Shown here one piece after another: positions 46,851-49,487 of a DNA stretch of 64,000 bases. Location: positions 186,001 through 250,000 of the forward strand of contig NZ_BAAADV010000003.1 in NCBI RefSeq assembly GCF_039522665.1, written 5' to 3'. The position numbers were made by a program, and so were the translations under genes. Numbering within the stretch: position 1 is the stretch's first letter; every line of letters starts with the position of its first letter. The notes beneath the pieces were generated by a model, which ran no database searches, was not told the DNA's origin, and worked only from the letters and a program-made list of their open reading frames with translations. The stretch comes from Natronoarchaeum mannanilyticum. Lineage in GTDB: Archaea; Halobacteriota; Halobacteria; Halobacteriales; Natronoarchaeaceae.

Positions 46851-46943
46851 TTGTCTGGTTCGACGAGAGGATGCCTGATTGGTGTGATCTTCCGGTAGCT
46901 CCGCTCCTGGCGGTCCCTACGTCTACGGCCAACGAGAACTTCT

Positions 46944-47020
46944 CGAAAGCCCTCGGCCCGCTCCTAGCATCGGTGATAGCAGGGACTGGTTGGACCACCA
47001 CGAAAGCCCTCGGCCCGCTC
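46944..47020. repeat. 20-bp direct repeat pair
   Basis: The sequence cgaaagccctcggcccgctc occurs exactly at 46944-46963 and 47001-47020, a 57-bp period. The 37 bp between contain an unrelated tagcatcggtgatagcaggg stretch. Confidence 0.85.
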
Positions 47021-47077
47021 GCCCGTTCTCAGGGGGATATCCTCACTACGTTCGGATAGGGCCCCCTGAGAACGGGC
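47021..47077. repeat. perfect 16-bp inverted repeat
   Basis: The arm gcccgttctcaggggg (47021-47036) is exactly complementary to 47062-47077, with a 25-nt spacer that itself contains tatcc/ggata. The structure begins at the last base of the second direct repeat. It could form a stable hairpin in RNA or a cruciform in DNA. Confidence 0.85.
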
Positions 47078-47103
47078 CACCGGTCCTCGCCCTTTCAGTC
47101 CAC

Positions 47104-47475
47104 CGGAAGACTCGCTACGCTCGTCTTCCGAGCCCTGCCTCGCTTCGCTCGGCAGGACACCAGGACAGTACCGCGACCGCTTGCGCGGGTCGCCACAAGG
47201 GCGACCACGCGCAGCCCTGCCCTTCCCCGGGGCGCGACACAGGGTCGCGCCCGGCCGCGGGGTTGCGGTGGCGCGCGCTGTCGAGCCGCTCGTGGCGAGA
47301 CAGCGCCGCGCGAGGGATGAGTAGCGCAGGCGCAAGCCGAGCAACGCAATCGGTTGGGGAGGACGAGGTCGCTGTGGGTGGGAATGAAAGGGGCCGCCTC
47401 GGTCGATCCGGTGAGGCGACGGTGAGCCGAACATCGTGAGGCGAACGTCGGAAGACGAGGGGAGCGAGTCTTCCG
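47104..47475. repeat. three hairpins with GAGCG-AGCGA-type loops
   Basis: Stem cggaagac/gtcttccg occurs twice: at 47104-47130 with loop tcgctacgctc, and at 47449-47475 with loop gaggggagcga. A third hairpin, cctgcc/ggcagg at 47134-47156, has loop tcgcttcgctc. The loops are the reverse complement, or a variant, of those at 5059-5070 and 5117-5128, so they belong to the same dispersed family. Confidence 0.7.
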
Positions 47476-48626: not shown

Positions 48627-48807
48627 AGTTGCCCGTCGCTACGGCGCCGCGGGAGAAAAGCGCCGCGGTGTGGCGCGCGGCGCCGATGCGGGAGCGCTAC
48701 CGCGTGCGTGCGACGCCGTATCGCGCCGCCGTCGTGTGAGAACGCCTGACGCTATCGGTGCGAGGCGTAACGTATTTCAATTCAGTCGCTGTTAGGTTGG
48801 AGTACGT

Positions 48808-48881
48808 GTCCGGGTTGGGGTAGTGGACTATCCTTCAGCCTTGTGGAGGCTGAGACGCGGGTTCGATTCTCGCACCTGGAC
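48808..48881 (+). tRNA. tRNA-His (GTG anticodon)
   Basis: This 74-nt tRNA has an 8-bp acceptor stem including G-1 (48808) paired with C73 (48881), the identity feature of tRNA-His. The anticodon stem is cagcc/ggctg (48836-48840, 48848-48852) with loop ttgtgga and anticodon GTG at 48843-48845. The T arm ends gcgggttcgattctcgc. CCA is not encoded. An AT-rich taacgtatttcaattc upstream (about 48767-48782) is the promoter. Its last 24 bases are repeated downstream. Confidence 0.97.
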
Positions 48882-48992
48882 TTTCTGACGACGAACGGAC
48901 GTGAGGAGTCGGAAGTCCGTTCGTAAGAGAATCGAATCACGCGAGACGAGCGCTAGCGAGTCTCGCATCGGGTTCGATTCTCGCACCTGGAC
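48858..48992. repeat. att-like 24-bp direct repeat of the tRNA-His 3' end
   Basis: The last 24 bases of tRNA-His (48858-48881, starting cgggttcgattctcgcacct) recur without mismatch at 48969-48992. A complete T-arm and acceptor 3' half duplicated downstream of a tRNA is the usual mark of tyrosine-integrase insertion at a tRNA (attL/attR). The 87 bp between the copies contain two hairpins: 48891-48900/48915-48924 and 48941-48947/48960-48966. They also contain an inverted copy of the T-loop core (gagaatcgaa). Confidence 0.85.
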
Positions 48993-49181
48993 CTGACAAA
49001 CTCTTTGATTGTTGTTTTTGGCCTTTGTAGGGCCTCAAATGGAGATTTACCCGTCCTTCGGCCGGAACATACAGATATTATCATTTTTGGCAGCACCAGC
49101 GATCGCCGTTTCGAAGATCCAAGAGTTGGCCGAACACTTTCGGGAACACGTTGGTCCATCCAAGTCAGCTAGAATCGAGCG
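48882..49181. other. low-GC gap after tRNA-His
   Basis: No supported gene lies in these 300 bp. After the second att-like copy, composition drops sharply: bases 49021-49080 contain 29 G/C of 60 and 49081-49140 contain 30 of 60, against roughly two thirds elsewhere. A T-rich run (49009-49018) could terminate the tRNA transcript. The low-GC stretch probably is a relic of inserted DNA. Confidence 0.6.
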
Positions 49182-49487
49182 ATGACTCGCCGGGAGGAAC
49201 TCGAAGCGTTGGCCGACCGCGTCGCGGTGATCGACGGCGTCGAGCGATCGTGGGGCGCCCGGAGCTTCGAGGACACGCTGCTGTTCGTCGAAGTGCCCAG
49301 CGGCGCAATGCTGCCGGACGACGCCGCCGAACTGCTGGACGAGCAAGAACTGACGGGCGCCAACGAAGCCTACGGCATCGACGCTTCGGGCGCCTCGGAC
49401 GCCGGCAACGTCGGCGACTACGAGCAACACCGGTTCGTCGACACGGCCGACGAGAACGAGAGCATCAGTCGAGCCAGTTCGACCTGA
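49182..49487 (+). CDS. conserved acidic protein of unknown function
   Basis: This 101-residue protein starts at ATG 49182. It reads ELEALADRVAVIDGVERSWGARSFEDTLLFVEVPSGAMLPDDAAELLDEQELTGANEAYGI, then a disordered end. Codon use and acidity are ordinary for the chromosome, so it is probably native and marks the right-hand end of the atypical patch. I do not recognise the family. Confidence 0.6.
   Translation: MTRREELEALADRVAVIDGVERSWGARSFEDTLLFVEVPSGAMLPDDAAELLDEQELTGANEAYGIDASGASDAGNVGDYEQHRFVDTADENESISRASST

Follow-up and report, generated by a model that had tools for sequence, protein, structure and literature searches.

The 111 bp that follow the tRNA-His(GUG) gene in the 64,000-nucleotide stretch of Natronoarchaeum mannanilyticum DNA analyzed here (the window) may well be one unit of a haloarchaeal family of non-coding repeats that behave like cassettes and recombine at the T-arms of tRNA genes, a reading to which we assign a probability of roughly 0.45. 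Because the copies end in the 3' end of their own tRNA and come and go as whole units, they point to a family of their own and not to the scar of a single lost virus.

The window contains the last 24 nt of the tRNA, CGGGTTCGATTCTCGCACCTGGAC, in just two exact copies, which start at 48858 and 48969 and lie 111 bp apart with 87 bp in between, and a search of the N. mannanilyticum genome allowing up to 3 mismatches found no occurrence beyond these two. The original prediction, made from the sequence of the window, had described an exact 24-bp duplication 111 bp apart, a neighboring stretch of low G+C content, and an inverted T-loop core with two hairpins between the copies. All of these were borne out, the duplication by sequence search, the low G+C content at 48993-49181 downstream of the second copy (48.1% vs 68.8% for the window), and the inverted core and hairpins at 48927-48938, 48883-48914 and 48941-48966. 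The features of the locus are the following:

48808..48882, + strand: tRNA-His(GUG) gene, called by ARAGORN and matching Rfam RF00005 at 46.1 bits
48858-48881, + strand: last 24 nt of tRNA-His, the first copy, with the same sequence as the second copy
48882..48992, + strand: complete 111-bp tail unit, with a unit about 90% identical behind tRNA-His in the relative G004
48883..48914, + strand: proximal hairpin of the unit, from the predicted fold; its GA/GA motif, GACGAACGGACGTGAGGAGTC, is also found behind many tRNAs
48927..48938, + strand: inverted T-arm (GAGAATCGAATC), the reverse complement of the tRNA T-arm and the 5' arm of the distal hairpin, from sequence and covariation
48929..48980, + strand: distal hairpin, over the extent covered by covariance model R1 (73.6 bits, E 5.8e-18, with this sequence itself among the 29 used to build the model)
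48941..48966, + strand: central hairpin GCGAGAC-GAGCGCTAGCGA-GTCTCGC, of a type common to the tRNA-Gly, -Glu and -Asp units of the same genome
48969..48992, + strand: second 24-nt copy of the tRNA-His 3' end, exact, from sequence matches in the window and genome

Across 114 distinct units in which the inverted arm is clear, lengths range from 82 to 253 bp with a median of 115 bp, and the elements run in the order of tRNA 3' end, proximal hairpin (often containing GAACGnnGTGAG), inverted T-arm, central hairpin, and direct T-arm with the 3' strand of the acceptor. The units occur singly or in tandem. Their T-arm sequence tracks that of the host tRNA (CGATTC, CAATTC, CAAATCC, CGAATCC), and a small set of central hairpin and junction types (AC..ATCG, CT..TCC, AG..GCGT, AG..CCGT) recur across different tRNAs and families. 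For 55 of the 59 copies scored in two congeners, the adjacent tRNA was the best match, with three of the remaining four coming from the array of a neighboring tRNA gene and one being truly foreign.

Copies that nearly always match the adjacent tRNA, together with inverted and direct copies of one sequence, are also what one would expect if no special enzyme were involved and T-arms were simply hot spots of replication slippage or template switching. The copies would then arise locally, the hairpins would be perfected by templated correction, and the arrays would be reshuffled by general homologous recombination, in keeping with the reshuffled or duplicated units that we found within single arrays. 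However, this explanation accounts neither for the recurrence of a few central hairpin and junction types behind different tRNAs and families nor for the near-absence of the units outside haloarchaea, and we consider it unlikely.

When 29 distal hairpins were aligned, 97% of the cells paired and compensatory changes were present at 9 of 19 pairs; 59 cells were changed on both sides compared to 17.6 in shuffled alignments, and the slid controls collapsed. Of 63 units, 52 fold better as the tRNA-sense strand than as the complement (p = 1.4e-7), and G-T mispairs outnumber A-C mispairs (24 vs 9, p = 0.014). Taken together, the covariation, the better folding of the sense strand, and the G-T excess argue that the structure is kept, and kept on the tRNA-sense strand, with the mispair excess fitting RNA and single-stranded DNA equally well.

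As such, a functional RNA tail has to be weighed, i.e., that the unit is transcribed with the pre-tRNA and its two hairpins aid 3'-end formation, protection, or regulation, with the copied tRNA end sequestering the inverted T-arm and so keeping it off the tRNA. The compensatory covariation and the better folding of the sense strand speak for such a tail, as do the tolerance of G-U at arm positions, the orientation of the apical motif, which is fixed in the sense direction (58 forward, 2 reverse), and the near-universal presence of the units in haloarchaea. Runs of at least five T within the next 60 nt also follow 18% of last copies compared to 5% of tRNAs, although this is weak support, and a terminator argument drawn from these runs is weak as well. 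On the other hand, about half of the tRNAs of a genome carry no unit and orthologues in congeners gain and lose units freely; no tRNA therefore seems to need one, which argues against an essential role. Rfam, furthermore, returned only noise and no family matching the unit, so we rejected a known RNA family as its identity. A functional RNA tail, including the sequestering role of the copy, is possible but in our view doubtful.

The original prediction had interpreted the duplication as an excision scar or a decayed att pair of a larger element. A direct repeat beside a stretch of low G+C content does superficially fit such a scar, and tRNA-His is a genuine integration site in haloarchaea: in Haloquadratum walsbyi HBSQ001, a 52-kb island with an integrase lies at tRNA-His and ends in a 43-nt tRNA-His repeat (PMC3119063). 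However, comparison of the region 48780-49200 to 59 relatives showed that in several families the entire unit immediately follows tRNA-His, with an identity of 90% in G004 and of 81-86% in G058, G003, G056, G039, G054, G005 and G041; other relatives have two or three tandem units. Parts of the His unit also match downstream of tRNA-Gly, Glu, Asp, Arg, Ala and Leu. The structured unit is thus common to the tRNA-His of many genera and to many other tRNAs of the same genome, with the same inner hairpins, which comes close to the widespread second copy free of insertions that the prediction itself had named as evidence against a scar. At the loci examined in this genome and its relatives, only short non-coding bodies lie between the His copies, apart from one locus in G030 described below, and the predicted homologues with an integrase and cargo in that position were not found. 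Empty sites of the predicted kind do exist, albeit at other tRNAs (tRNA-Gly and others in the congeners G044 and G019) and not at tRNA-His.

A virus or plasmid carrying the 24-mer had also been anticipated, but searches with the exact 24-mer and with the core hairpin produced 0 matches in IMG/VR and none in phages, and the only two plasmid matches, both on Natrinema plasmids, cover just the tRNA part of the query. We accordingly rejected carriage of the unit by viruses, phages or plasmids. What stands of the prediction is that this is a recombination-related feature of a tRNA 3' end. As a remnant of one larger element at tRNA-His, it is so improbable that we regard that interpretation as refuted for practical purposes.

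Two further tRNA-His loci deserve mention. In G030 (L054, 2750-5838), a near-copy of the tRNA-His 3' end with 2 mismatches lies 3.07 kb away, behind the His unit, and the 3-kb interval holds genes that, judged by eye, resemble nadB and a metal-dependent hydrolase, with no integrase seen; these are possibly genes caught between tail copies. In Natronorubrum bangense (L131), we considered whether an integrase element had used the outer His copy and rejected this, as the chromosome holds just the two copies that belong to the unit, and these do not enclose the nearby integrase.

With a unit counted wherever the final 22 nt of a tRNA recur no more than 450 nt downstream, 18 of the 38 ARAGORN-resolved tRNA genes of the N. 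mannanilyticum genome carry one, including genes for Gly, Ile, Glu, Phe, Val, Met, Ser, Leu, Pro, Arg and His, and two congeners have units at 20/40 and 18/40 orthologous tRNAs. Across 93 haloarchaeal tRNAs, a set partly picked by similarity in which the own-genome part (18/38) is unbiased, the best downstream match to a tRNA's own last 22 nt was bimodal. At most 6 mismatches were found for 50 of the 93, compared to only 2 of 93 in upstream control regions. Duplication of tRNA 3' ends is far beyond chance. The signature of T-arm, inverted T-arm and T-arm matched 115 of the 116 haloarchaeal genomes tested, covering all 45 genera (45/45), with the reversed control nearly always at zero, and 11 of 119 other Halobacteriota genomes sampled across the phylum outside the order, mostly as single matches and once as a CRISPR-like array. 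The signature also catches some chance matches in coding DNA, which makes counts per genome rough. The CRISPR-like array (G223:C8:98172-100154) has a repeat, GTTCAAATCAGACCAAGATGGGATTGAAAG, that fits the T-arm pattern by chance, and it is an artifact and not a tail array.

A covariance model of the distal hairpin yielded 70 full-length matches in three genomes. For 66 of them, a tRNA on the same strand precedes the match by no more than 600 nt, against a chance expectation of about 0.5%. The same kind of apical hairpin was also found away from tRNAs, which counts against the cassette reading. Inspection by eye revealed no unit behind the SRP RNA or the RNase P RNA of the N. mannanilyticum genome.

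Turnover of whole units can be followed between the congeners G044 and G019, whose orthologous tRNAs differ by entire units between conserved flanks (93-97% identical). One tRNA-Gly has no unit in G044, and its orthologue in G019 is followed by an additional 135 bp starting right at the end of the tRNA, with flanks 97% and 93% identical; the other tRNA-Gly has zero units and two, respectively. At the tRNA of a further pair (pair 4), the G019 sequence runs on directly at the sequence that follows the array in G044. The comparison covers the two congeners alone, and some of the differences may be losses by recombination between repeats.

In G044, one tRNA-Leu array has an additional unit of 89 bp, and the left copy of this unit matches, with one mismatch, the 3' end of another tRNA-Leu. 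The body of this foreign unit resembles the units at that other tRNA-Leu, and the junction falls within a shared GGTTCGAATCC. Together with the empty sites, the presence of another tRNA's 3' end indicates that units move or recombine at the T-arm, and the arrangement is what insertion of a unit, or recombination, within the T-arm would predict. It is the one clear case of transfer between tRNAs, and plain homologous recombination could have made it. Several tRNA arrays of the G044/G019 genus additionally contain, or are followed by, a second dispersed module, CCACTTTTTCCGAGGGGCTGC...GCAGCCCCTCGCAAAAACTTGGGG (e.g., L150, L151 and L171), which is perhaps a terminator.

The other 4 of the 70 model matches are far from any listed tRNA. 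In G044, a displaced tRNA-Arg unit lies 54.8 kb from its tRNA and adjoins an apparent tyrosine integrase gene; all that is left beside this gene is CCTGCAACGCCCA. In G019, the corresponding tRNA-Arg unit directly follows the tRNA and is 96.9% identical over 130 bp to the displaced one. The 54.8-kb region between tRNA-Arg(TCG) and the displaced unit in G044 (G044:C1:1166560-1221340), with the tyrosine-integrase-like gene at its far end (L256), is probably an integrated element. That only CCTGCAACGCCCA stands beside the integrase gene here, a footprint unlike that of the tail units, counts further against a scar as the origin of the tail units.

A second distant match (G000:C4:98266) adjoins the end of an integrase gene. 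A third, in the N. mannanilyticum genome itself (G000:C7:346438), is a unit of the tRNA-Arg(TCG) type located 58 kb downstream of that tRNA, which has integrase-like fragments beside it, and G000:C7:346438-404549 (L257, L079) is probably an old integrated element. The fourth match is in G044, in the vicinity of tRNA-Trp. Cases such as the displaced tRNA-Arg unit indicate that classical integrase elements sit between the tRNA and the unit, and the tyrosine integrases found close to displaced units apparently go with integrated elements distinct from the units. In G002 (L032/L125) and G024 (L033), members of two families, tyrosine integrases that are 93% identical lie beside a unit and a tRNA-Pro-like 3' end; this may be an element carrying a unit within its own attachment site. 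L032 and L033 were also considered as non-tRNA loci of the unit and rejected, since neither is an SRP RNA locus and both terminate with a tRNA-Pro-like 3' end.

Occurrence throughout genomes and the lineage, clustering of model matches behind tRNAs, whole-unit turnover, the foreign tRNA-Leu unit, shared central hairpins, covariation, and sense-strand folding are the grounds on which we propose a cassette that would insert by recombination inside the T-arm sequence (GGTTCRAAYCC). An incoming unit would supply a new, correct tRNA 3' end and displace the old end outward. The inverted T-arm would let the single strand fold so that the T-arm is displayed in duplex form, in the manner of integron attC sites, and this duplex could be a natural substrate for a putative tyrosine recombinase acting in trans, provided by the host or by tRNA-targeting elements. 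Insertions with a foreign acceptor end would be tolerated only in outer copies because an acceptor-stem mismatch at the gene itself would kill the tRNA, which would account for the foreign tRNA-Leu end having been observed in an outer copy alone. Counting against the cassette proposal, no unit was found on a virus, phage or plasmid record. The fullest form of the proposal, that the units are previously undescribed, haloarchaea-wide, self-folding non-coding cassettes on tRNA T-arm platforms, forming integron-like arrays at about half of a genome's tRNA genes and moved in trans by a recombinase that recognizes the folded single-stranded T-arm duplex, is one that we offer tentatively and as less probable than the cassette reading itself.

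Tandem units behind a tRNA gene are known from Escherichia coli tyrT/rtT, where 178-bp repeats follow tRNA-Tyr, each with the last 19 nt of the tRNA. The haloarchaeal units similarly have their own copy of the tRNA 3' end. In contrast to tyrT/rtT, which concerns one tRNA locus in some enterobacteria, they are present at many tRNAs in nearly every haloarchaeon, and they have an inverted T-arm and shared central hairpins. Similar to integron cassette arrays and their attC sites, they form tandem arrays of imperfect palindromes that fold as single strands, are anchored at a fixed site, and are gained and lost as whole units. However, the attC core consensus is GTTRRRY / RYYYAAC, and the haloarchaeal units carry GTTCRAA at that place; they also contain no genes, being at a median of 115 bp too short for a protein of usual size, and have many anchors (the tRNAs) per genome. 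Archaeal examples of integron cassettes and attC sites have been described, without mention of haloarchaea (PMC9668308).

The small mobile repeats and MITEs of H. walsbyi are likewise about 110 bp long and non-coding, with inverted repeats, a strong target preference, and unexplained mobilization, but they target IS605-type elements without target duplication (PMC3119063), whereas the units here lie at tRNA 3' ends flanked by direct copies. Like MITEs and SMRs in general, the units are short, lack a transposase, and contain inverted repeats, here the inverted and direct T-arms. As in the att sites of tRNA-targeting proviruses and plasmids that use tyrosine recombinases, as covered in a review of archaeal tyrosine recombinases (PMC8371274), the 3' part of the tRNA is duplicated; those sites enclose kilobases and an integrase, in contrast to 87 bp of conserved hairpins with no gene. 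A CRISPR array, with regular repeats of about 30 nt and unique spacers of even length, was rejected given the recurring hairpin types of the bodies and unit lengths of 82-253 bp. To judge from their descriptions, none of tyrT/rtT, integron arrays, and the H. walsbyi repeats combines inverted and direct T-arms matched to the tRNA with presence at many tRNA genes. No description of such units was found in a literature search whose reach ended short of older work on halobacterial stable-RNA genes, and a term search of the review (PMC8371274) did not bring any to light. The tail-unit family is likely, but not certain, to be novel.

The units affect how duplicated tRNA ends in haloarchaea are read as provirus scars, and they supply ready-made recombination sites beside tRNAs. 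They also constitute a testable system, a short non-coding cassette whose gain and loss are visible between sister species. Should a recombinase act on the folded strand, tRNA genes would be the basis of a mechanism resembling that of integrons; should the tails be transcribed, they would represent a new class of structure in pre-tRNA trailers.

A separate dispersed intergenic repeat family is present in the window at 46940-47160 (- strand) and at L109, L112 and L114-L119, with GGACTGAAAGGGCGAGG ... GGGCCGAGGGCTTTCG and GAGCGNAGCGAG hairpins. It has an apical hairpin type in common with the tail units and contains no copies of tRNA ends.
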